Origin: an uncultured Bacillota bacterium
GTDB taxonomy: Bacteria > Bacillota_I > Bacilli_A > RFN20 > CAG-288
DNA: 50,780 bases
NCBI GenBank assembly: GCA_949299015.1
Contig: CASFYT010000002.1
Coordinates: forward strand, 1-50,780
Direction of reading: 5' to 3'
The notes under the pieces were generated by a model. That model was not told the origin of the DNA and did no database searches. It saw only the letters and a list, made by a program, of their open reading frames with translations. Of the stretch, positions 8,628-21,989 are shown piece after piece; positions within the stretch are counted from its first letter, which is position 1, and every line of letters begins with the position of its first letter. The position numbers and the translations under genes were made by a program.

Positions 8628-10430
8628 TTACTTGGTCAACGGCGTCGTCTCCGGAGTCGGATCCGGATAGCACTCCCTCTTGTTGTTGTAGGAAGTGTGG
8701 AGGAGCTTCTCCGCCAAGGGGGAACCCGCGGAGATGAGGTAGTCCTTGTAGAGCTTCTGAATGTCGGGATTCAGATGGCTGCGGCGGATGGGCTTTCCCT
8801 TGTCCTCATCGTAGAGGATCTTGGCCCTCTTCTCGCGATAGGTATACCAGATGTCGGGATCCTCGTTGGGAAGGAAGACCGGGAAGACATAGGGTTGTCC
8901 GCCACCGTTGATGCAGCCGCCGGGGCATCCCATGACTTCGACGAAGTCGTACTTGCACGTGCCCGCCTTCACCTGGTCGAGGATGACCTTGGCGTTCTTC
9001 ATGCCGGAGCAGACGGCGATCTCGATCTTGATGCCGTTGATGGAAAGCGAAGCCTCCTTGATGCCTTCAAGGCCGCGGACCGGAGCAAAGACGACCGGCT
9101 CCATCTCCTCGTTGGTCATGATGTGATAAGCCGTGCGAATCGCCGCCTCCATGACGCCTCCGGTGACGCCGAAGATGACGCCGGCTCCCGTGTTCTCACC
9201 GATGAGGTCATGGTCGAAGTCCTCGTCCGGCAGACGATTCCAGACGATTCCGGAACGACGGATGAGCTGTCCGAGCTCCCTCGTCGTCAGGACGACGTCG
9301 ACGTCGTCGAGGCTTCCGACCTTCTCCTCCGGACGCGACCGCTCGTATTTCTTGGCCGTGCAGGGGACGACGGAGACGACGCAGATGTTGGCCTTGTCGA
9401 TTCCGTTCTTCTCCGCATAGTAGGACTTGATGATGGCTCCCATCATCTGCTGCGGGGACTTGCAGGTCGAAAGGTGCGGAATCAGCTCCGGATAGTTGTA
9501 TTCGATGTAGTTGATCCAGCCCGGAGAGCAGGAGGTCATCATCGGCTTGGGGGCACGCTGGGCGAAGCGCTTGACGAATTCCGTCGCTTCCTCCATGATC
9601 GTCAGATCGGCACCGAAGTTGAGGTCGAAGCAACGATAGAAGCCAAGGCGATGCATCGCCGCGGCCAGCTTCTTGGTGCAGTTGGTCCCGATCCTCTCGC
9701 CGAATTCCTCGCCGATGGCCGCCCGGACGGCCGGAGCGACAAAGGCGATCACCACCTTCTTCTCCTGGAAGGCCTGGTCGAGCTTCGGAAGGTCGTTGTG
9801 CTCCATCAGGGCGCCCGTCGGGCAGACGATGGTGCACTGTCCGCACTGGATGCAGGGGACGGTCGCGAAGGAACGGTTCTCCACCGGACCGACGATGGTG
9901 TTGAAGCCGCGGTTCTGGAAGCCGAGGATGCCGATTCCCTGCGCGTCCTTGCAGGCTTCGATGCACTTTCCGCAGAGGATGCACTTGCTCGTGTCGCGCA
10001 CGATGCCCGGAGCGATCTCGTCTATCGTCGTCTGCGTCTTCTTGCCGACATAGAGCTCCGGACGTGCGCCGACCTCGCGGGCCACTTCCAAGAGCTCGCA
10101 GTGCCCGTTCTTGCGACAGGCCTGGCAGTTGTAGTAATGGTTGGAGAGGAGAAGCTCGACCGAAGTCCGGCGGGCAGCGACGGCCGCCGGGTCGGTGATG
10201 GAGATGTGAAGCCCGTCGCGGACCGGATACGCGCAAGAGGGAACGAGCCTCTTCTCGCCGTCGACATGGACGAGGCAGACGCGGCAGGAAGCCAGGGAGC
10301 ACTTATGGTCGCGCCAATGGCAGAGGTTGGGGATGTTGAATCCGCACGTCTTGGCCGCCTCAAGGATCGACATCCCTTCGTCGACGATGTAGGGATGGTT
10401 CTCGATATAGATTGTGACTTTGTTTGCCAT
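8628..10430 (-). CDS. hydA: [FeFe] hydrogenase catalytic subunit HydA
   Basis: 600 residues from the ATG at 10430, placed 4 bases after the hydB stop. Domains in order: plant-type [2Fe-2S] ferredoxin (Cys spaced as in CGFNIPNLC…CSLASCRVC), the His-Cys3 cluster motif (HYYNCQACRKNGHC), two [4Fe-4S] motifs (CILCGKC…C and CIQCGQC…C), then the H-cluster domain with TSCSPGW (about 297), PCTAKKYE (about 355) and EVMGCPGGCINGGGQP (about 496), and the small-subunit-like C-terminus ending in KLLHTSY. The H-cluster motif before PCTAKK has VV where M is usual. It interconverts protons and H2; with HydB and HydC it should be the NAD- and ferredoxin-linked bifurcating form. Confidence 0.97.
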   Translation of the reverse strand: MANKVTIYIENHPYIVDEGMSILEAAKTCGFNIPNLCHWRDHKCSLASCRVCLVHVDGEKRLVPSCAYPVRDGLHISITDPAAVAARRTSVELLLSNHYYNCQACRKNGHCELLEVAREVGARPELYVGKKTQTTIDEIAPGIVRDTSKCILCGKCIEACKDAQGIGILGFQNRGFNTIVGPVENRSFATVPCIQCGQCTIVCPTGALMEHNDLPKLDQAFQEKKVVIAFVAPAVRAAIGEEFGERIGTNCTKKLAAAMHRLGFYRCFDLNFGADLTIMEEATEFVKRFAQRAPKPMMTSCSPGWINYIEYNYPELIPHLSTCKSPQQMMGAIIKSYYAEKNGIDKANICVVSVVPCTAKKYERSRPEEKVGSLDDVDVVLTTRELGQLIRRSGIVWNRLPDEDFDHDLIGENTGAGVIFGVTGGVMEAAIRTAYHIMTNEEMEPVVFAPVRGLEGIKEASLSINGIKIEIAVCSGMKNAKVILDQVKAGTCKYDFVEVMGCPGGCINGGGQPYVFPVFLPNEDPDIWYTYREKRAKILYDEDKGKPIRRSHLNPDIQKLYKDYLISAGSPLAEKLLHTSYNNKRECYPDPTPETTPLTK

Positions 10431-10434
10431 GGTC

Positions 10435-12333
10435 TCACTCCTTGTAGATGGCGCCGAACTTGCATCCGGCGACACAGGTTCCGCACTTGATGCACTTCGT
10501 CTGGTCGATCTTGAAGGCTTCCTTGCCGACGACGCCGGAGATGGCGTTGACGGGGCAGGACCGGGCGCAGAGAGAGCACTTCTTGCACTTCTCCGGATCG
10601 ATGTGGTAGCTGATCAGGTCCTTGCAGATTCCGGCATCGCATTTCTTGTCGACGATGTGGCGGATGTAGACGTCGTGGAACTTCTCCAGCGTGGAGATGA
10701 TGGGGTTGGCGGCCGTCTGTCCCAGTCCGCAGAGGGCACCGACTTGGATGGATTGGGCAAGTTCATGCAACTTATCGATATCGGAAAGGGTTGCCCTTCC
10801 GCTGGTAATCTTGTCCATGATCTCCAAAAGTCTCTTTGTGCCAATTCGACATTGAGAGCATTTTCCACAAGATTCATCGCAGATGAACTGCATGTAGAAC
10901 TTGGCGACGTCGACCATGCAGTTGTCCTCGTCCATGACGATGGCGCCGCCCGATCCCATCATCGAGCCGTGGGCGACCAGGGAGTCGTAGTCGATGGGGA
11001 CGTCCAGCTCATCGATCGTCAGGCAGCCGCCGGAAGGTCCGCCGGTCTGGATCGCCTGGAACATCTTGTCGTTCTGGATTCCGCCGCCGATGTCATAGAT
11101 GAGCGTGCGGAGGGTCGTTCCCATCGGCACCTCGACGAGACCGACGTTCTTGACCTTTCCTCCGAGGGCGAAGACCTTCGTCCCCTTGGACTTCTCCGTT
11201 CCGATCTTGGCAAACTTCTCCCAGCCTTCGCGCAGGATGTAGGGGACGTTGGCCAAGGTCTCGACGTTGTTGATGATGGTCGGCTTTCCCCAGAGGCCCT
11301 TGACCGCGGGGAAGGGCGGCTTCGGACGCGGCATGCCTCTCTTTCCTTCGATGGAGTTGAGCAGGGCCGTCTCCTCGCCGCAGACGAAGGCGCCGGCTCC
11401 GTAGCGGATGCCGATGTCGAAGTCGAAGCCCGAATTGAGGATGTTCTTTCCCAAAAGGCCGCACTGCCGAAGTTCCTTGAGGGCCGTCTCGACGCGATGG
11501 CAAGCGATCGGATATTCGGCACGGATGTAGAAGTATCCCTGCGTGGCTCCGATGGCATAGCCGGCGATCATCATGCCTTCGATGACGGCGACCGGGTTCC
11601 CCTCGAGGATGGAGCGGTCCATGAAGGCACCGGGGTCGCCTTCGTCGCCGTTGCAGACGACGTACTTGACGTCGCTCTTCTGATCGAGGGCGAACTGCCA
11701 CTTGCGACCCGTGGGGAAGCCCGCGCCTCCTCTGCCCCGCAGTCCCGCCTTGCCGATTTCGTCGATGACTTCCTGGGGTTTCATCGTCAGGGCGCGACGG
11801 AAGGCCTTCATTCCGTCATAGCCGAGGGCTTCGTCGATGTCTTCGGGATTGATGGTTCCGCAGCCGTAGAGGGCGATGCGGACCTGCTTCTTATAGAAAT
11901 TGATGTCGTCCTGACGGGTGACCCTCTTCTTCGTGGCGGGATCGACGTAGAGCAGATCCTCGACGATCTTGTTCCCGATGAGGTCTTCCTCGATGATGCG
12001 CTTGGCATCCTCCGGCTTGACGCCGTGGTAAAGGGTGTCCTCCGGATAGATCTTGACGAAAGGACCCTGCGAGCAGAAGCCGAAGCAGCCGACGAGATTG
12101 ACCGTCACCTTGTCTTCGAGCTTGTGGGCCTTGATCTCCTTCAGGAGTTCATCGTGAATCAGCTGGGAGTTGGACGAGAGGCACCCCGTTCCTCCGCAGA
12201 TGACGATGTGCCTTTTTCCGTCCTTTCCGGAGAATTTCTCCTCCAGCTTCTTCGTCGCCTCGTCCAGGCGCTTGTCCAGCGCCTTGGTATCCTTGATCTT
12301 GACGTCCGTTGTCGCTTTCCTGGGCATCTTCAT
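10435..12333 (-). CDS. hydB: NAD/FMN subunit of trimeric [FeFe] hydrogenase, HydB
   Basis: 632 residues, NuoF-like. An N-terminal thioredoxin-like [2Fe-2S] domain (CGGTGC near 40, then VGCFGFC) precedes the FMN/NADH domain (GRGGAGFPTGRKW and CNGDEGDPGAFMDR), an SLBB segment, a [4Fe-4S] site (CGKCSQCRIG…C), and two C-terminal ferredoxin-type clusters (CKKCSLCARSC, CIKCGTCVAGC). This is the HydB layout of Thermotoga/Acetobacterium-type bifurcating hydrogenases. It lies between hydC (ATGA overlap at 12330-12333) and hydA. The SLBB/cluster segment at about 10738-10878 has AT-rich codons unlike the rest. Confidence 0.96.
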   Translation of the reverse strand: MKMPRKATTDVKIKDTKALDKRLDEATKKLEEKFSGKDGKRHIVICGGTGCLSSNSQLIHDELLKEIKAHKLEDKVTVNLVGCFGFCSQGPFVKIYPEDTLYHGVKPEDAKRIIEEDLIGNKIVEDLLYVDPATKKRVTRQDDINFYKKQVRIALYGCGTINPEDIDEALGYDGMKAFRRALTMKPQEVIDEIGKAGLRGRGGAGFPTGRKWQFALDQKSDVKYVVCNGDEGDPGAFMDRSILEGNPVAVIEGMMIAGYAIGATQGYFYIRAEYPIACHRVETALKELRQCGLLGKNILNSGFDFDIGIRYGAGAFVCGEETALLNSIEGKRGMPRPKPPFPAVKGLWGKPTIINNVETLANVPYILREGWEKFAKIGTEKSKGTKVFALGGKVKNVGLVEVPMGTTLRTLIYDIGGGIQNDKMFQAIQTGGPSGGCLTIDELDVPIDYDSLVAHGSMMGSGGAIVMDEDNCMVDVAKFYMQFICDESCGKCSQCRIGTKRLLEIMDKITSGRATLSDIDKLHELAQSIQVGALCGLGQTAANPIISTLEKFHDVYIRHIVDKKCDAGICKDLISYHIDPEKCKKCSLCARSCPVNAISGVVGKEAFKIDQTKCIKCGTCVAGCKFGAIYKE

Positions 12334-12815
12334 TCCTCCTTGCTTTTCTCGCGGTATTCCTGGATGATCTGAGGAACTTGGGCGAGGGTGACCTTCGGAT
12401 AGACCTTGCCGTTGATGCTCACGGCCGGAGCGATGCCGCAGGCGCCGAGGCAGCGCAGATCATCCAAGGAGAAGAGGCCGTCTTCCGTCGTCTGCCCCGG
12501 CTTGATCTTGAGCATCTCGCCGAACTTGTCGATGATGTTCTGTCCACCCTTGACATAGCAGGCCGTGCCGATGCAGACGCCGATGACGTACTTTCCCTTC
12601 GGCTCCAGGGAGAAGAAGTTGTAGAACGTCACGACACCGTAGATGTCGCTGACCGGGATTCCCGTCTTCGCCGAGATGATCTCCTGGACTTCCAGGGGAA
12701 TGTAACCATATTCCTTCTGAACGTCGCTCAGGATGAGCATCAAAGGGGAGGGCTCGTCCTTGTAGCGGTCGCAGATGTCGATGACGATGTCAATCGCTTC
12801 CTTCCTTAGTTTCAT
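12330..12815 (-). CDS. hydC: [2Fe-2S] subunit of trimeric [FeFe] hydrogenase, HydC
   Basis: 161 residues, NuoE-like thioredoxin-fold protein. The four cluster ligands are visible as Cys81, Cys86, Cys122 and Cys126 (CIGTAC and RCLGAC), the family spacing. The N-terminal helical part (LMLILSDVQKEYGYIP) is also typical. It is the first gene of hydCBA, starts with GGAGGAAA before the ATG, and overlaps hydB by ATGA. It passes electrons between the flavin subunit and the hydrogenase core. Confidence 0.96.
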   Translation of the reverse strand: MKLRKEAIDIVIDICDRYKDEPSPLMLILSDVQKEYGYIPLEVQEIISAKTGIPVSDIYGVVTFYNFFSLEPKGKYVIGVCIGTACYVKGGQNIIDKFGEMLKIKPGQTTEDGLFSLDDLRCLGACGIAPAVSINGKVYPKVTLAQVPQIIQEYREKSKEE

Positions 12816-12939: not shown

Positions 12940-13761
12940 TCAGACCGGAAGCCGTTCGTGCCTCGGTCGGATTCCTTCGACGGAATCCAAGAGGATCAGG
13001 TCATGCCTGCGGGCGAATTCCAGGGCCTCGTACTGGGCGGGAAGAAAACCGACCTGGTCCGGGGCGTGGGCGTCCTGGCCGAAGTAGCACTTGGCCTGAT
13101 ACCGATGGACGAGCGAGAAGAAGTCGTCGGTCGGGTAGATCCAGCGGAAGGAATTCCCGATCGTCCTCCTTCCATGGCGGATGCCGGCGAGGTTGATCTC
13201 CAGGGGGACGTCGTTGGCGACGGCGCACTCGATGATCTCCCTTGAGACCTTGCGGCAGTCGGCGTCGAAGTTGTCGATGGAGGAGAGGAAGTAGTCGGGA
13301 TGGGCAAAGAGGGAGAAGAGTCCCGAGGACAGGGCCTTGACGGCGAGGTCGCGGTAGAGGTAGAGCTCGCTGGCCGAATGGATGTGGGAAAAGCGGTTGG
13401 TGATCTGACGCTGGTCGTTCATGGCCGAGTGATTTCCCAGGATGAGGTAATCCAGGATATGGTTCCCCAGCAGCTCCTGGAAAAAGGGGAAATAGGGAGG
13501 AAAGCTTTCCGCCTCAAAGCCGAGGAAGATCTCGATCTGCCCTTCGTACTTCTTCTGGAGATCTCGGATGGAACGGCAATAGTCCTCGAAGAGGGAATAG
13601 TCTCCTCTCGTGTAGGGCTCCGAAAAATCCGGGAGCATCGCATGATCGGAGAATCCCAGCTGCGTGAATCCCCTGCCGATGGCTTGGAGGACGTATTCCT
13701 CGTCCTTTCCCGTCGCATGTCCGCAGCGGCGGGTATGCGTGTGGTAATTGCAGGTGAACAT
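12940..13761 (-). CDS. PHP-domain phosphatase, histidinol-phosphatase-like
   Basis: 273 residues with the PHP metal-binding motifs: HTHTRRCGHATG at the N-terminus, GFSDHA near residue 38, LGFEAE about 80, LGNHS about 107, FAHPDYF about 165 and FGQDAHAPDQVG near 240. This set matches the HisK-type histidinol phosphatases, which remove phosphate from L-histidinol phosphate in histidine synthesis. No other his gene is near, so the substrate could differ. It is transcribed divergently from the large helicase gene and has its own promoter. Confidence 0.88.
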   Translation of the reverse strand: MFTCNYHTHTRRCGHATGKDEEYVLQAIGRGFTQLGFSDHAMLPDFSEPYTRGDYSLFEDYCRSIRDLQKKYEGQIEIFLGFEAESFPPYFPFFQELLGNHILDYLILGNHSAMNDQRQITNRFSHIHSASELYLYRDLAVKALSSGLFSLFAHPDYFLSSIDNFDADCRKVSREIIECAVANDVPLEINLAGIRHGRRTIGNSFRWIYPTDDFFSLVHRYQAKCYFGQDAHAPDQVGFLPAQYEALEFARRHDLILLDSVEGIRPRHERLPV

Positions 13762-13915: not shown

Positions 13916-16900
13916 ATGGACAATCCCGAATTTCGACCCGAAATCCGCGTCAAGGCAAAGGTTTCGACCGGTCTCAATCTGCTTTCGATCGTCAACGATC
14001 CCTTGCCCTGTCTCGTTTCCCTTGCCGTCGAGAACCTCTCGGAAAGAGGAATCAAGGACCTGCGCCTCTCCATCCGCTTCGACCCCTCCTTCGGTCAGGA
14101 ACACGAGATCTTCTTCCAGTATCTCGGCCCGAAGTCGACCTCGCTGGTGAGTCCGAACGAGTTGAGAAGGCTGTCCTTCAACCGTCTTTTCTTCTCCCGT
14201 CTCACGGAGGCGACGAAAGGACGCGTCCTGATTTCCATCCGAGGGGAAGGATCGGCCGAACCCCTGCTGGAGGAGAGCTTCGAAATCGACCTCTATCCCT
14301 ACGACACCTTTCTCGGCCGGAGGGAGGGAAGGGAAAGCCAGCTGGCCAGCTACGTGATGCCGAACCTCTCGGGCGTCAAGGACCTGTGCGCCAAGGTCTC
14401 AGAGCGCCTCCGGGAAAAGGACAAAGGCTTCGCCTGCGGCTACCAGGAAGAGGAAAGAGGGGTCCTCGACCAGATCGAGGAGACGTTCCTTCTGCTCCGG
14501 TCGAAGCAGTTCCAGGTCCAAGAGGAGGACCTTTCCCGCATCGACCGAATCTCGATTCCGGACGTCCTCCTCGTCCGGAAGGAAGGGACGGTCCTGGACC
14601 TCGCCCTGCTCTATGCCTCGATCCTCGAGAACATCGGCCTCCATGCCCTTCTTGCCATCAAGGACGAAAAGGCCTACGTCGGATGCTTTTTGGAAGAAGA
14701 TGTCTTCCTGAGCAATTCCATCGAATATAGTCCTAGCCATGTTCAATCATTGATTGAACAAAAAAATCTCATATTGATTGATGTATCAAAACTAAGCAAT
14801 CCCATTTCCGAATTCAAAGAGGCAACAGAATCCATCGAAGAGGCCTTCTTCCAGGGTTTCGACTTCTTCTGCGCCATCGACATCTCCATCTGCCGCGACA
14901 ACGGAATCTTCCCCCTGCCTCTCCATTACGACGAGGCGAGCCAGAGCGTCGTGTATTCGGACCAAAGGAACGTCCTGAGGACATACGGCCACTACGATTC
15001 CCTGACGACGCAGGAAGAGACGCGGAGCGGCTTCGACGTCTGGGAACGCGAGCTTCTCGACCTGTCGATGAACAATCCACTGCTGAACTACCGAATCAAG
15101 AAGTCCCTCTCCTTCCTCTGCGACGACGCCGTCTCCTTCGCTCGTTCCTATCGGAGCGACGACCGGTTCGGCATCACGGCCAGGCCCGCCACGATGACAG
15201 GGACCGTCGACGTCCTCCAGGCCATCGACGACCCGCGCTATGCTTCCTTGGCCGCGGGATCCGTCCAGGGACGGAAGCTCGTCTCGTTCCTGACCGAGAA
15301 CGACCTGCGCGACCGGCTGAAGTACATCTATCGAAAATACCGCGACAACCTCAACGATAAGGGAGCCAACACCCTCTACCTCACCATCGGCCTGCTCCGC
15401 TATTACGAAGTCCAGAACCAGGACAACCTCGGCGCCTATCGCGTCGCTCCGCTCGTCCTTGTCCCGGTCGACCTCGTCAAGGACGGAAAGAGCAAGGGGA
15501 GCTATTCCCTTCGTCTGCGCGACGACGAATGGATGCACAACACCACGCTGATTGAATTCCTGAAGAAGGAGCGCGGCTTCGACCTCTCCGGAATCGAGTC
15601 GATCCTCCCTGGTCCGGACGGCCATCTCGACGTCGAGAGGATCCTCGCCCAGATGGAGAGGACGATCAAGGGTCTTTCCGGCTGGTCCTGCCACCGGAAT
15701 TACCTCGGCCTGGGTTCCTTCGACTTCACGCACTACTGCATGTGGAACGACCTGCGCCTGCGCAAGGAGGCGATGGGAAAGAACCCCATCATCCGTTCCC
15801 TTGCCAGCGGGAGGAAGGAATGGAGCGAGGCCACGTCGAGCCATCCCGTCCGGGAGAGCGACTGCTGCATCCCGCTGGTCGCCGATTCCAGCCAGATCGA
15901 AGCCATCATGAAATGCGCCGACGGCAAATCCTTCATCCTCTTCGGCCCTCCGGGAACCGGAAAGAGCCAGACGATCGTCAACATGATCGCCAACTCCCTC
16001 TATCACGGCAAGAAAGTTCTCTTCGTCTCGGAGAAGCAGGCCGCCCTGGACGTCGTCTACAACCGCCTCAAGCGGATCGGACTGGATCCCTTCTGCCTGC
16101 AGCTTCACTCCGCCAAGGCGAGCAAGGCGATGGTCCTCCGACAATTCTCCAACGCCTTCAAGAATGCCCAGCTCGGCTCCCCCTCCGAGTTCGAGCGCTA
16201 CAAGGAGAGCATCGCGACGAAGCGCACCAAGCTGGAGTACGACATCGAAGTCTTCCACCGCGCCTCCCCCTGCTTCCTCTCCATCAACGACGCCCTGATC
16301 GGCTATGAAAGCGTCAAGGAATCCCGCCAGCTCCCTCCCTTTTCCGACGATTTCCTCCGAAAGCTGACTCCGGAAGACTTCCAGTCGATCAACGACCTCG
16401 CAGAGAGGATCGCCTACCTCGAGGCCTATGGCCACTTCGGGACCTATTTCCAGAACGACCTGATGCCCCTGCGCGGACATGCGTATGGGCTGGAGAAAAG
16501 GGAGAGGCTGTCCGAACAGCTGGACCAGTGGATCAAGAAGGCCCAGATGCTCTCCGCCCGCGTCAACAAGATCAAGGAGGTCTTCCGACCCAACTTCTCC
16601 TTCTCCCGCAGCAACGTCGCCCTCCTGGCCCGCTTCCTGACAAAAGCCCTCGTCGCCGAGGCCCCCGTCCCCCTCGCCTCCAGCATCGTCGACTTCACCA
16701 TCGCGGAAGAGGCGGAGAACATTTCTTCCTTCCTGACGCTGCTGACAGAATACCAGAGCATCCGACAGGAGAAGCTCCTCCCCTACCTGAAGCCCGAGGT
16801 CCTGAAGGACAAGTCGCTTCGGGAAGGCTATTCGGAGGTCAAGTCCATCGACCTTTCCGGCAAAATCTTCCATCGCCAGAAGAGCGCAAGCAAGGCGAAG

Positions 16901-19699
16901 AAGATTCTCCGTCCTTACGAGAAGAACAAGATCAAGGCCTCGCAGGCGACCGCGCTTCTGACGCTGGTCATCCACCTTCAGGACCTTGCTTCGCAGATTG
17001 ACGCTTTCCTTCCTTCCGTCCGAAACGTCTTCCGGGAACAATTCGTCGACATCGACGAAAGCGATGCCGTTGCATTGAAGAAAGAATTCGAATATTCCCT
17101 CTCCCTCTATCAGAGCGTGGACGCCCTGGAGGACCTGCCGAAGAAAAAGCGGCTCCTCTCGGCCTTCCTCTCCGTCCTCCATTCGCTCTCCAGCCTCAAC
17201 GTCAACGCCGTCAACGTCTTCCTCTCCCTCTATCAGGAATTCGAGGATTCCCTGGAGGAGCAGCGGCAGAAGTTCGACTTCGACCTCTCCGTCCTTCCTG
17301 ACCGCAGCGATTACTACGCCTCCCTTCCGGGAAACCTGCAGAAGATCAAGGACAAGCTTTCCTTCGCCCCGGAATGGGCCAACATGAATTCGGCCCTGGA
17401 CGAGCTCAAGGCCCTCGGCCTGGAATCGGCCTGCACGGCGCTCAAGGAGGGAAAGGTCTCCTGCCGCACGCTGAAGGACGCCATCGACTGCCGCATCTAC
17501 CTGGGCATCGCCCTCCTCTCGATCCGCGAGAACAACCTCGAATCCTTCTCGGGCCTGAGCGAAGAGGCGACCATCCGCAAGTTCAACGAAGAATGCGCCC
17601 TCTTCCGCGAGCTCTCCATCGCCATGCTCCGGAGCCGGCTGAGCGAGGACATCCCCAACGAGAGGACGAACGCCTCCCCGACCTCCGAGCTCGGCTTCCT
17701 CAAAAAGGCCATCTCCTCCAACGGGCACGGGAAGGGCATCCGCATGATCCTCGACGGCGCCATCAACCTCGTGAGGACGCTCTGCCCCTGCTTCCTGATG
17801 TCCCCGATGTCGGCGGCGACCTATCTCTCCCCGAACATGGCGCTCTTCGACGTCGTCATCTTCGACGAAGCCAGCCAGATCCCGACCGCCGAGGCCGTCG
17901 GTCCCATCTCCCGCGGCAGAAGCCTCATCGTCTGCGGCGACAGCAACCAGCTCCCGCCGACCTCCTTCTTCAAGCGGGACAACTCGTCCTCCGAGGACAG
18001 CGACTTCCTCAACTCGTCCCTTCCCTCCATCCTGGAGGAATGCAAGGCCATCATGCTGCCCGAACAGGAACTGCGCTGGCACTACCGCAGCCGTTCGGAA
18101 TCCTTGATCGCGTTCTCCAACCACGAATTCTACAACGACTCCCTCTACACCTTCCCCTCGATCGACGACCAGGTCTCGATGGTCCGGTACGTGCCCGTCC
18201 AGTCGGCCTACGACCGGTCCCATTCCCGGACCAACGCCCGGGAGGCGGAAGCCATCGTCAAGGAGGTGCTGAGGCGGAAGAAGGATCCTCGCCTCAAGAA
18301 GGATTCCATCGGCATCGTCTGCTTCTCCCAGGCCCAGAAGGACCTGGTCGAGGACAAGCTGGACGACGCCATGACCGAGGAGCTCAAACAGGAAGACGAG
18401 CAGTCCCTGGAGCCGATCTTCGTCAAGAACCTGGAAAACGTCCAGGGAGACGAACGCGACGTCATCATCTTCTCCATCGGCTACGGCATGGACCGCAACA
18501 GGAAGATGTCGATGAACTTCGGCCCCATCAACGGCATCAACGGCTTCCGGCGCCTCAACGTTGCGATTTCCCGCGCCCGCAAGGAGATGCTCATCTACAC
18601 CAACATCGACCCGGACCTCTACCATGACGAAGACATCGACAACCCGGGCGCTCAGTACCTCTTCCGTTTCCTGCGCTATGCCAAGCACGGCCGAAGCGAA
18701 CTCCAGAACTCCCCTCGGACCCAGGAGAGGAAGAAGGAAGTCCTCGCCGAATCCCTGGCGGCGGAGCTGCGGAAGAAGGGATACGGGGTCCACACCTCCG
18801 TCGGCGATTCCGCCTTCCACCTCCACCTCGCCCTCGCCGACAAGGAACATCCGGAGGACTATCTCCTCGGCGTCATGATCGAAGGAGAGAAGGGAACCGA
18901 CTACCACCTCGTCGACAAGCTCCAGATCCAGCCCGAGGTCCTCAAGTCCCTCGGGTGGAAGACGATCCGCGTCTACGCCATCGACTGGATCAACTCCCCC
19001 AACAGCGTCATCACCGAGATCGAGATCGCCTACCGCAAGGCCTTGGAAGAGAAGAGGGGCCGGGACTTTGCCGGTGCAATGCCCGAGCCCAAGCCCACCG
19101 TCCGCCCGCCGGTCCTGGAAAAGAACGCGAAGCGGACCGGCAAGGGCAAGGACTACGTCCTTCCGCTCTATCACAGCCTGGAACAGAGCCAGCTCAAGGA
19201 GGACGAAATCCAGCACCAGATCGCCATCGTCCTGAAGAACGAAGCGCCGCTGAGCGAACGCCTGCTGCAGAAGAGGATCGCGTCCATCTTCGGAATCACG
19301 CGTCTCCAGGGGGCGGCGAAGGAGCTCTACGACAAGACGGTCGAGAAGTGGAAGGAAGGACATCTCGTCACAAAGAACAAGGACGGCACGTCGTTCTTCT
19401 GGTATGAGGGACAGGACCCCAAAAAGCTGGGATTCTACCGCCGGAGAGGCGGCCGGTCCGACCGCAACCTCGACGACATCCCCAAGGAAGAGATCGCCGT
19501 GGCGATCTACGACATCCTCATGGACCAGTTCGCCATCGACCGCGAAGGCCTGGCCCGTCAGCTCCTGGCCTACTTCGGACTCTCGCGCGATACGGGCAAG
19601 TTCGCGCCGATCATCGAAGAGAGCATCGACTACGCCATCGAAAACAGGACGGACTTCCTGGCCGTCGGCGAAAACGGAACGTTCCTGCTCAAGGATTGA
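13916..19699 (+). CDS. UPF1-like SF1 helicase with TGase-like, nuclease-like and DUF3320 domains
   Basis: 1927 residues, COG1112 type. In order: a beta-rich N-terminal domain (1-140), a transglutaminase-like segment near 225-270 (EGTVLDLALLYASILENIGLH…AYVG), a DUF4011-type region (about 380-600), helicase Walker A GPPGTGKS (677-684), a long helical insertion, DEAS Walker B (1317-1320), GDSNQLPP, motif V (VQGDERDV, about 1509) and motif VI (NVAISRARKE, about 1547), a Vsr/MTES_1575-like endonuclease fold (about 1600-1690), and DUF3320 (about 1755-1925). Related multidomain helicases have been reported in defence-rich gene neighbourhoods. Helicase motifs look intact, while the transglutaminase Cys/His and the nuclease Asp/Glu appear replaced. 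An AT-rich patch lies at 14690-14838. It overlaps the next start by one base. Confidence 0.9.
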   Translation: MDNPEFRPEIRVKAKVSTGLNLLSIVNDPLPCLVSLAVENLSERGIKDLRLSIRFDPSFGQEHEIFFQYLGPKSTSLVSPNELRRLSFNRLFFSRLTEATKGRVLISIRGEGSAEPLLEESFEIDLYPYDTFLGRREGRESQLASYVMPNLSGVKDLCAKVSERLREKDKGFACGYQEEERGVLDQIEETFLLLRSKQFQVQEEDLSRIDRISIPDVLLVRKEGTVLDLALLYASILENIGLHALLAIKDEKAYVGCFLEEDVFLSNSIEYSPSHVQSLIEQKNLILIDVSKLSNPISEFKEATESIEEAFFQGFDFFCAIDISICRDNGIFPLPLHYDEASQSVVYSDQRNVLRTYGHYDSLTTQEETRSGFDVWERELLDLSMNNPLLNYRIKKSLSFLCDDAVSFARSYRSDDRFGITARPATMTGTVDVLQAIDDPRYASLAAGSVQGRKLVSFLTENDLRDRLKYIYRKYRDNLNDKGANTLYLTIGLLRYYEVQNQDNLGAYRVAPLVLVPVDLVKDGKSKGSYSLRLRDDEWMHNTTLIEFLKKERGFDLSGIESILPGPDGHLDVERILAQMERTIKGLSGWSCHRNYLGLGSFDFTHYCMWNDLRLRKEAMGKNPIIRSLASGRKEWSEATSSHPVRESDCCIPLVADSSQIEAIMKCADGKSFILFGPPGTGKSQTIVNMIANSLYHGKKVLFVSEKQAALDVVYNRLKRIGLDPFCLQLHSAKASKAMVLRQFSNAFKNAQLGSPSEFERYKESIATKRTKLEYDIEVFHRASPCFLSINDALIGYESVKESRQLPPFSDDFLRKLTPEDFQSINDLAERIAYLEAYGHFGTYFQNDLMPLRGHAYGLEKRERLSEQLDQWIKKAQMLSARVNKIKEVFRPNFSFSRSNVALLARFLTKALVAEAPVPLASSIVDFTIAEEAENISSFLTLLTEYQSIRQEKLLPYLKPEVLKDKSLREGYSEVKSIDLSGKIFHRQKSASKAKKILRPYEKNKIKASQATALLTLVIHLQDLASQIDAFLPSVRNVFREQFVDIDESDAVALKKEFEYSLSLYQSVDALEDLPKKKRLLSAFLSVLHSLSSLNVNAVNVFLSLYQEFEDSLEEQRQKFDFDLSVLPDRSDYYASLPGNLQKIKDKLSFAPEWANMNSALDELKALGLESACTALKEGKVSCRTLKDAIDCRIYLGIALLSIRENNLESFSGLSEEATIRKFNEECALFRELSIAMLRSRLSEDIPNERTNASPTSELGFLKKAISSNGHGKGIRMILDGAINLVRTLCPCFLMSPMSAATYLSPNMALFDVVIFDEASQIPTAEAVGPISRGRSLIVCGDSNQLPPTSFFKRDNSSSEDSDFLNSSLPSILEECKAIMLPEQELRWHYRSRSESLIAFSNHEFYNDSLYTFPSIDDQVSMVRYVPVQSAYDRSHSRTNAREAEAIVKEVLRRKKDPRLKKDSIGIVCFSQAQKDLVEDKLDDAMTEELKQEDEQSLEPIFVKNLENVQGDERDVIIFSIGYGMDRNRKMSMNFGPINGINGFRRLNVAISRARKEMLIYTNIDPDLYHDEDIDNPGAQYLFRFLRYAKHGRSELQNSPRTQERKKEVLAESLAAELRKKGYGVHTSVGDSAFHLHLALADKEHPEDYLLGVMIEGEKGTDYHLVDKLQIQPEVLKSLGWKTIRVYAIDWINSPNSVITEIEIAYRKALEEKRGRDFAGAMPEPKPTVRPPVLEKNAKRTGKGKDYVLPLYHSLEQSQLKEDEIQHQIAIVLKNEAPLSERLLQKRIASIFGITRLQGAAKELYDKTVEKWKEGHLVTKNKDGTSFFWYEGQDPKKLGFYRRRGGRSDRNLDDIPKEEIAVAIYDILMDQFAIDREGLARQLLAYFGLSRDTGKFAPIIEESIDYAIENRTDFLAVGENGTFLLKD

Positions 19700-20754
19700 T
19701 GGGCAAGCTCCTCGACCTGTTCGACGCGATGGAAAGGGACGGGAAGGAAAGGGCCCGTCTCTCGTCCCTCAACATCGAAACCTCCCTCGACTATTCCCTC
19801 TTCCGCGAAGAAGGGAAGAACGTCTTTCTCCTGGACGGAAGGCGCTACGAGATTCCCGACAACAGCACCCTCTTCGTCCGCCAGGACAAGGTCTTCGTCA
19901 ACAACGTCCCCTTCCCTTCGCTGGAGGAGAGGGAAGAGGACGATCCGCACCAGTCCGTCGAACGCATCCGTCCCTACTACCTTCCGCGGGAGATCGACGT
20001 CGAACACCGCCTCGTCCTGAGGCAGAAGAGGAAGGCGACCTACGACGACCGCATCGACAAGCGGATTCCCCTCTACGTCTACCGCTTCCAGGACAGGGAA
20101 GGAAGGATCTTTCCTGTCCGCGTCTACCGCGGCGGACGGGAGACGAGCCGACGCGGCTTCCTCCACTATGGGACGATGGAGCTCTTCTGCTCCGAGGAGG
20201 ACAGCGACAAGGAGGTCTCGACCTTCGTCGAGTACCTGATCGAAAAGCGGAACCAGGTATACTTCACGCCCTTCTACGACGAAGGAACCCTCTTCTTCTT
20301 CGGCCGAAGGAAGACCGTCACCACGGACTCCAGGAGGCTCTCCGACCCCGACGCCTTCGTCGTCGCCCCAGGAGAGCATCCGATCCGCTCCTACAAGCAG
20401 AACTTCTTCCTCTACCTCAAGAAGAGGATCGTCGAGATCGGAGACCGGATGGGGCTCGACCTGAGGCGCTGGGAAATCAAGGTCAACAACTACCAGGGTT
20501 TCTTCGCCTCCAACAGCAGCGAGAGGGTCTTCCGCTTCGACTACCGGAACTGCGCCTTCCGGCAGGACATCGTCGACGCCCTGATCGTCCACGAGGTCGC
20601 CCATTGCTACGTCCGCAACCACGGCAAGGCCTTCCAGGCCCTCTGCCGCCGCTACTGTCCCGACTACGACCTCCTGGACTACTTCATCGATCAAGGCGTC
20701 CTCAACCCCCAGTACCTGAGCGAAGCGGAACGCCGGAAATACGCGACCCGATAG
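19699..20754 (+). CDS. YgjP/SprT-like zinc metalloprotease with N-terminal extension
   Basis: 351 residues from the ATG at 19699, overlapping the helicase stop (TGATG). The C-terminal third is the YgjP/WLM-type domain: a helical lead-in (LYLKKRIVEIGDRMGLDLRRWEIKV) and HEVAHCYVRNHGKAF near residue 297, giving the HExxH plus downstream His zinc site. YgjP family proteins are usually about 230 residues, so roughly the first 110 residues here are extra and unassigned. Translational coupling to the helicase suggests that the two act in one process, possibly protein or nucleoprotein processing. Confidence 0.82.
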   Translation: MGKLLDLFDAMERDGKERARLSSLNIETSLDYSLFREEGKNVFLLDGRRYEIPDNSTLFVRQDKVFVNNVPFPSLEEREEDDPHQSVERIRPYYLPREIDVEHRLVLRQKRKATYDDRIDKRIPLYVYRFQDREGRIFPVRVYRGGRETSRRGFLHYGTMELFCSEEDSDKEVSTFVEYLIEKRNQVYFTPFYDEGTLFFFGRRKTVTTDSRRLSDPDAFVVAPGEHPIRSYKQNFFLYLKKRIVEIGDRMGLDLRRWEIKVNNYQGFFASNSSERVFRFDYRNCAFRQDIVDALIVHEVAHCYVRNHGKAFQALCRRYCPDYDLLDYFIDQGVLNPQYLSEAERRKYATR

Positions 20755-20843: not shown

Positions 20844-21989
20844 ATGGACTATCATCGGATCAAGGCCCATTCGGCCGAAGAATTCCTCTCGCTCTACTAC
20901 GACAGGGATTGCCTTCTCGAAGCCATCGACTACGATCCCTCCTTCCTGGAAGAACTCGTCGGACGGGCCCGTGCGCTCGTCAAGGAAGAACCTTCGCCGA
21001 AGAACAACGTCCTGCTCTCCTACCTCCTCATCGAAAAGGAAGACACCGAAGGCATCCGCCTGCTCGACAGCATGGCCCGGACCGGCGAGAGAAGGGCGCT
21101 CTACCTCCTGGGCGAATGCTACCAGAACGGTCATCTCGTCGAAAAGGACATCGACCAGGCCCTCCGCTGCTACGAACTGGCCGCCAGCAAGGGAGAGCCG
21201 ATGGCCCTGACGCGGATCGGCATCTCCTACACCTATGGATTCGGAAAGGAAAAGGACCTCGACAAGGCCGTCCATTGCTTCCAAGAGGCGGCAGATCAAG
21301 GACATCCCGTCGCCCTCTATTCCCTCGGCGTCCTCTTCTCTCTTCCCCAGTACGAACACAAGGACACGAAGAAGGCCCTCTCCTACTTCGAGGAGGCGGC
21401 CAAACAGGGGTCCGTCGAGGCCTTGTCGAGCCTCGGACGCGCCTACAAGTACGGAGACGGCGTTCCGCAGGATTACCGGAAGTCCCTGGAGTACTTCCTC
21501 CAAGCCAGCGAGAAGGGAGACCTCTTCGCCAGCAACAACGTGGGCCTCTACTACGAAAGGGGGCTTGGAGTCGCCTACGACCTCCGGAAGGCCGTCGAGT
21601 ACTATCGGAAGGGAGCAATGGCCAACTATGCCCCCTCCCTCTATCATCTCGGCCTCCTCTACCTGGAAGGAAAGGCCGTCGAGAAGGACGAGGAGAAGGC
21701 CTTCTCCCTGCTGAAGAAGGCGTCGGACCACAACTATCCCCTGGCCTCCTACTACCTCGGAATCCTCTACAAGGACGGGAGGGGAACCAAGAAGGACCTC
21801 GAAAGGGCCTTCTACTGCTTCCGGATCGCCAAGGAGAACGGAATCGCCCACGCCATGTATGAGCTTGGCCTTCTCTACCTGGAAGGACAGGGAACCGAGA
21901 AGGATGTTCCCCTCGCCAAGACCCTCCTTCGCCAAGCGAAGGAACAAGGAGTCGTCGAGGCCGGGGAAAGGCTGAAGGAGATTTCCTAA
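20844..21989 (+). CDS. Sel1-repeat protein
   Basis: 381 residues. After an unassigned N-terminal 85 residues there are about eight Sel1-like repeats of some 36 residues, each with the A-x-x-x-L-G-x-x-Y-x-x-G core followed by D-x-x-K-A-x-x-Y/F (for example ALYLLGECYQNG, SLGRAYKYGDGV, LGLLYLEGKAVEKD). Such solenoids bind partner proteins. No signal peptide or membrane segment, so cytoplasmic. It lies 89 bases after the metalloprotease gene with its own promoter, so it may or may not belong to that unit. Confidence 0.9.
   Translation: MDYHRIKAHSAEEFLSLYYDRDCLLEAIDYDPSFLEELVGRARALVKEEPSPKNNVLLSYLLIEKEDTEGIRLLDSMARTGERRALYLLGECYQNGHLVEKDIDQALRCYELAASKGEPMALTRIGISYTYGFGKEKDLDKAVHCFQEAADQGHPVALYSLGVLFSLPQYEHKDTKKALSYFEEAAKQGSVEALSSLGRAYKYGDGVPQDYRKSLEYFLQASEKGDLFASNNVGLYYERGLGVAYDLRKAVEYYRKGAMANYAPSLYHLGLLYLEGKAVEKDEEKAFSLLKKASDHNYPLASYYLGILYKDGRGTKKDLERAFYCFRIAKENGIAHAMYELGLLYLEGQGTEKDVPLAKTLLRQAKEQGVVEAGERLKEIS

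Follow-up and report, generated by a model that had tools for sequence, protein, structure and literature searches.

The gene considered here lies in a 50,780-nucleotide stretch of DNA, analysed as a whole and called the window below. It raises a question of enzymology: what does a large helicase do with two built-in enzyme folds whose active sites both look degenerate, and could the metallopeptidase encoded directly behind it provide the missing chemistry? A first-pass annotation of the sequence had suggested that the two dead folds serve for binding, and that activity comes from the neighbouring enzyme.

A ProA-like helicase of known architecture

The helicase reading frame (Table 1) aligns collinearly and over its full length with the NCBIfam model NF058533, 'anti-phage protein ProA' (residues 27-1891 on profile positions 6-1903 of 1903). 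Its score, 1397.6 bits, lies below the curated cut-off of this equivalog model (1500 bits), as do those of the copies in the three congeneric genomes G004, G006 and G010 (1410-1473 bits); plasmid copies from Klebsiella and Bacteroides reach 2225 and 2197 bits. PADLOC PDC-S37 matches residues 368-1909 (E 4e-291), its match starting after the transglutaminase-like (TG) region, and Hhe (NF042953) matches the helicase-nuclease part at 593.8 bits, far below its cut-off of 2000. The full-length family matches, together with the same layout in the three congeners, establish the reading frame as real. When genome contigs were scanned with the window protein, these congeners were recovered along with mostly distant helicases, and no ProA relative was found on viral contigs. 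The host genome itself is a 1.14 Mb assembly with an estimated completeness of 85%.

From its N-terminus, the protein consists of a strand-rich region, the dead TG domain, DUF4011, RecA1, a stalk, RecA2, a degenerate nuclease and tandem winged helices (wHTH), Pfam recognizing the helicase in two parts, AAA_11 and AAA_12. Its solved relatives by sequence are SMUBP2, Sen1 and UPF1. As the first-pass annotation had stated, the helicase motifs are intact, and all those expected of a UPF1-like SF1 enzyme are present (GPPGTGKS, DEAS, GDSNQLPP, NVQGDERD and RRLNVAISRAR). The C-terminal region finds its fold matches in the winged helices of ESCRT-II, the Rpc5 tWHD and the cullin WHB.

Anantharaman et al. 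(2013, PMC3710099) reported the order TG, SF-I helicase, Vsr REase and wHTH in MTES_1575-type proteins, and suggested that the TG domain, as a peptidase, adds another line of defence. The window protein has the same order of domains, but its catalytic residues are lost, and no HEPN domain was found in it. It likewise shares the whole layout of ProA (N-terminal TG, DUF4011, split SF1 helicase, MTES_1575 nuclease, DUF3320), from which it differs by its lower score, by the degeneracy of both catalytic sites, which the Klebsiella plasmid copy keeps, and by a linked YgjP-like gene. A literature search found no published description of ProA, PDC-S37 or ProAB, and no published account of the chemistry of TG/helicase/Vsr defence proteins was found.

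The hydrogenase-like and PHP genes listed in Table 1 also flank ProA in G004 and G010, which makes vertical inheritance of the locus look more likely than a place in a mobile defence island.

Table 1. Features of the helicase-metallopeptidase locus and its surroundings (positions in the window; residues and codons counted in the helicase)
Feature	Position	Strand	Basis
HydABC-type electron-bifurcating hydrogenase-like genes	8628-12815	-	look-alike reading
PHP-domain gene, beside hydrogenase-like genes	12940-13761		
ProA-like SF1 helicase, 1927 aa	13916..19699	+	ORF; NF058533; PDC-S37; Pfam
N-terminal region, residues 1-138	13916..14329	+	strand-rich, low-confidence AlphaFold2 model
TG domain, residues 139-330, catalytically degenerate	14330..14905	+	Foldseek; weak Transglut_core2; alignment with TG-live relatives
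Codon 226, Val for catalytic Cys; model helix 226-240 begins there	14591..14593	+	alignment, model
Codon 252, Lys for catalytic His; within model strand 252-258	14669..14671	+	alignment, model
Codon 289, Asp, presumed third triad position, retained	14780..14782	+	D/E in 56/70 TG-type homologues
DUF4011, residues 379-549	15050..15562	+	Pfam PF13195 1.9e-30
Walker A GPPGTGKS, residues 677-684, intact	15944..15967	+	sequence
Motif II DEAS, residues 1317-1320, intact	17864..17875	+	sequence
RecA2 (AAA_12), residues 1381-1563	18056..18604	+	Pfam PF13087 3.7e-17
MTES_1575/Vsr-like nuclease, residues 1612-1702, degenerate	18749..19021	+	Pfam PF18741 1.1e-12; fold match 3hrl prob 0.99
Codon 1637, His for first catalytic Asp (IDL)	18824..18826	+	alignment
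Codons 1654-1656, M-I-E for E-x-D	18875..18883	+	alignment
C-terminal DUF3320 / tandem winged-helix region	19193..19696	+	weak Pfam DUF3320; winged-helix fold matches
TGATG, helicase stop overlapping metallopeptidase start	19697..19701	+	sequence
YgjP-like metallopeptidase, 351 aa from ATG	19699..20754	+	PF01863 1.3e-15; YgjP tree
Zinc site HEVAHCYVRNH (HExxH + third His), intact	20590..20622	+	sequence, alignment
Sel1-repeat protein, directly after metallopeptidase gene	20853-21986	+	

Two active sites lost at different times

Homologues of both kinds, TG-type and TG-less, were drawn from the wider phylum and plasmids as well as from 279 host-order genomes, and aligned; the comparison set comprises 69 other TG-type and 18 TG-less proteins beside that of the window. 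A tree was built from the helicase core only, the TG and nuclease columns being left out. Two features of this sample may be mentioned. The Bacteroides finegoldii 'plasmid' record that carries a ProA homologue (L219) also contains rpsA and bglX, and may therefore be a chromosomal fragment, and TG-less relatives occur in genomes of family f11 with many in-frame TGA codons (TGA read as an amino acid, mycoplasma-like).

In the window protein the TG motif reads GTVLDL...DEKAYVG, and in its TG-live sister G004 TCIDL...GHAFVG. Cys is present at column 226 in 51 of the 70 TG-type proteins and His at column 252 in 53, so that the loss of both residues claimed in the first-pass annotation is confirmed (C226V and H252K), and the Cys-His-acid triad is replaced by V226/K252/D289. 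The two closest relatives, G006 and G010, are also dead at these sites, with other residues: in the order G006, G010 and the window genome (G000), column 226 reads A, G, V and column 252 T, K, K. Since the residues differ among three separate genomes, sequencing error is unlikely, and such variation is the pattern expected of drift after inactivation. Replacement catalytic residues elsewhere in the TG domain were looked for, and no new Cys or His common to the dead trio was found.

The fold appears to have outlived the site. AlphaFold2 models, built on alignments of 4 and 9 sequences and of modest confidence overall, retain both a TG and an endonuclease-like fold, with a pLDDT of about 70-93 for the TG core (residues 150-310). 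Among solved structures, Foldseek matches the TG model best to yeast and mouse PNGase, Rad4/XPC and TGase, with a prob of up to 0.93 but an E of 0.0027 and poor global superposition, and the segment is thus predicted still to be a TG fold of the PNGase/Rad4 type.

The nuclease domain carries three substitutions, its motif reading FHLHLAL...YLLGVMIEG: alignment with homologues recovers the Asp to His and Glu to Met changes reported earlier (D1637H, E1654M), together with D1656E. In place of the active-site pattern D...ExD...H it has H1637, M1654, E1656 and T1661. The PF18741 model (REase_MTES_1575) nevertheless recognizes it at 48.2 bits, above the gathering cut-off of 38.2, with an E-value of 1.1e-12 against 8e-25 for a relative that has kept its Asp residues. 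The structural model matches the endonuclease-like 3hrl (prob 0.99), with tandem winged helices after it.

These substitutions have different histories. The Glu of column 1654 is kept in all 18 TG-less proteins and in only 4 of the 69 scorable TG-type ones, all four from proteobacterial plasmids (Paraburkholderia, Rhizobium, Thioclava and Klebsiella), while Leu, Ile or Met stands there in the Bacteroides and Acinetobacter plasmid copies and in every scorable TG-type protein of the host class. Loss of the 'YH' His is, like that of the Glu, common to TG-type relatives across this class. Both losses are therefore old and not special to the window protein. The first Asp (1637), by contrast, is present in 63 of the 69 scorable TG-type proteins and in all 18 TG-less ones, its loss being limited to the genus of the window (Asn in three members, His in the window) and the pair G052 and G493; the second (1656) is Glu in this genus only. 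The alignment thus indicates that the Asp changes are local and the Glu loss ancient, and nuclease loss, which had been presented as a feature of the window protein, is so only for its Asp part. Across the family, the nuclease Glu is never missing from TG-less helicases and never present in TG-type helicases of the host class, a pattern of trade-off between domains.

On the helicase tree, six changes are needed for TG death, two for the nuclease Glu and two for the Asp, counts that are approximate because the tree comes from a quick search without a mixture model. With 19 dead and 50 live TG domains (n=69), Cys/His loss is recent in the window lineage and occurred independently about six times in the family. 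Within the window clade, G004 is the first to branch off, followed by G006, and G010 pairs with G000, an order that is strongly supported. G004 combines a live TG with a degenerate nuclease, and the TG is dead in the other three, whose helicases share only 66-76% identity. Read along this tree, the nuclease Glu was lost first, in the host class, and the TG site later, in the trio.

A duplicated metallopeptidase behind the helicase

The partner gene encodes the zincin core HExxH...H of housekeeping YgjP (PF01863), and the copies of its own genus are its closest relatives. It differs from them by an N-terminal extension of about 115 residues and by its place behind ProA. In a profile search, YgjP matches were found in 231 of the 279 host-order genomes, typically about 215-235 residues long; the long form was found in three of them only (G000, G006 and G010), each time directly behind ProA, and each of these genomes also keeps a second, housekeeping-type copy. 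In the YgjP tree the three partners are sister to twelve housekeeping copies of the same genus (support 97/91), so that the partner is the product of a duplication dating from the stem of the genus or close to it. Secondary matches of the partners are to WLM/SprT families. No homology between the partner and the N-terminus of ProA was found with hhalign, nor were PDB relatives of the partner found by sequence.

The TG-live G004 has no linked YgjP, its sole match being the housekeeping copy; as this genome is a MAG, the absence may reflect a gap elsewhere, but the ProA locus is fully covered. The linked extended peptidase is thus found only with TG-dead helicases. We rejected the broader rule that a dead TG goes with a linked metallopeptidase, as the TG-type loci of the host order show five other independent TG-dead lineages without a YgjP neighbour, and the association between TG death and YgjP is a single evolutionary event.

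Other genes were seen at the same place. In G004, a 244-aa protein without Pfam or NCBIfam match, and unrelated to YgjP, is encoded 1 nt after ProA (L033:12240-12974). Seven ProA loci of genus g27 (L144-L149 and L032) have, within about 15 nt downstream, a gene for a conserved protein of about 292 aa with N-terminal zinc-ribbon-like CxxC pairs, which could be a partner in that clade. No recurrent partner gene was found across the ProA family, downstream genes being common only to close clades.

Where the chemistry may reside

How could such a helicase work? The explanation that we place first, tentatively and at somewhat less than an even chance, is that of a ProA-type defence helicase whose cutting chemistry has left the helicase chain, a peptidase now acting in trans. 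In the ancestor, one protein would have united a TG-like peptidase and a Vsr-like nuclease with an SF1 helicase that translocates. In the host class the metal-binding Glu of the nuclease would then have disappeared, so that, apart from the ATPase, no built-in catalytic domain but the TG was still intact, until, in one lineage of the genus, the TG site died and a duplicated YgjP with a new N-terminal extension came to lie directly behind the helicase. Driven by ATP, the helicase would move along foreign nucleic acid, its winged helices and dead folds offering surfaces that bind nucleic acid or protein; it would present or unfold bound proteins, and the metallopeptidase would cleave them in trans. 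The nuclease fold would most likely serve for binding only. The sequences show the architecture, the residue losses with their order on the tree, the linkage, the origin of the partner by duplication and its intact zinc site; a defence role in the host organism, the formation of a complex and proteolysis as the output are what we infer here.

Several observations count for this explanation. Homology to ProA and PDC-S37 over the whole length supports a defence helicase. The presence of the partner in exactly the TG-dead trio, and its absence from the TG-live G004, suggests that the protease moved to a separate gene, and the intact zinc ligands, the TGATG overlap and the WLM/SprT secondary matches speak for a protease in trans. 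The order of the losses and the kinship of the partner with the housekeeping YgjPs of its genus also count in its favour. Against it count the single event and the five TG-dead lineages without YgjP, as well as the place of the duplicate in the tree, next to the housekeeping copies of the genus taken together, so that it may predate TG loss and simply have been lost from G004. Moreover, in G006, where the flanks have changed, the two genes do not overlap but lie 33 nt apart. The proposal that the metalloprotease supplies the activity is partly supported: linkage, zinc site, overlap and co-occurrence with dead TGs agree with it, but as a general rule it is not supported, resting as it does on one evolutionary coincidence, and in the nuclease the Glu had gone much earlier. 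For the TG in the window lineage, the metallopeptidase in trans is, from this pattern, the best candidate replacement.

A comparable division of labour is described for the helicase FANCJ, which unfolds DNA-bound protein for the SPRTN protease (PMC12279946). FANCJ belongs to a different helicase family, and YgjP is only distantly like the WLM/SprT (SPRTN/Wss1) enzymes, so the likeness is one of analogy; it shows that cooperation between helicase and metalloprotease is feasible. A fuller version, in which effector chemistry was exported stepwise, the nuclease dying before the peptidase, a duplicated housekeeping metallopeptidase being recruited and the dead folds becoming docking or sensing modules, strikes us as rather doubtful. 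If it were true, the working output of ProA-type helicases in the host class would be cleavage of proteins, not of DNA, and nature would here offer a plain case of an enzymatic step passing from a domain to a separate gene. The pattern itself, with the Glu lost class-wide and the TG mostly live but lost in a lineage that has a linked peptidase, suggests that the effector activity is proteolysis.

Alternatively, both folds may be binding or scaffold modules in a helicase that translocates or displaces, the peptidase being an unrelated neighbour or a separate regulator. We regard this as possible, but rank it below the trans-acting peptidase. Rad4/XPC, which is among the top Foldseek matches of the TG model, binds DNA through a papain/TG-type domain without catalytic activity (PMC10318531); it is eukaryotic, has no helicase in the same chain, and at most works alike without being a member of the family. 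By analogy, it is a direct precedent for the reuse of a dead TG fold. Some six independent TG deaths, five of them without linked YgjP, fit this alternative, as does the nuclease, which relative to the RecA core evolves no faster after its residue loss than in relatives. It accounts less well for a peptidase that remains linked in all three TG-dead species despite the divergence of their helicases and the changed flanks of G006, and that in the window overlaps the helicase stop codon, with a conserved zinc site and a lineage-specific extension. Under either explanation, binding roles are made plausible by selection: between G000 and G010, uncorrected pN/pS is about 0.14 for the nuclease and 0.34 for the TG, values that are indicative only, as synonymous sites are near saturation, and by this measure both dead domains seem to remain under purifying selection. 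The earlier suggestion that the dead folds are used for binding therefore stands as a plausible role, with the folds retained.

The nuclease might still be alive, its metal being held by a relocated site or by one of Vsr type. D1631, E1656, E1658 and H1664 do not vary among the four members of the genus and are seldom found outside it, and such ionisable residues could form a new site with D1667, which is conserved in 69 of 69 scorable TG-type proteins. Vsr itself dispenses with the (D/E)xK Glu, for which reason the inactivity of the window nuclease is likely, not certain. We nevertheless consider an active enzyme improbable: Asn or His stands in place of the first Asp, an acid found in almost every PD-(D/E)XK and Vsr site, the YH histidine has gone too, and the domain score drops.

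Equally improbable, in our opinion, is that the TG domain is relaxed and heading to loss, with no function left. Dead TGs do change faster than live ones relative to the RecA core (Mann-Whitney p = 0.046, uncorrected, in one of three comparisons on a small hand-picked set of pairs), the TG/RecA-core ratio being 4.6-6.8 in the trio versus a median of about 2.7 in live pairs. However, three species have kept both the reading frame and the fold, pN is well below pS, and all six dead lineages keep the whole domain, although TG-less forms exist.
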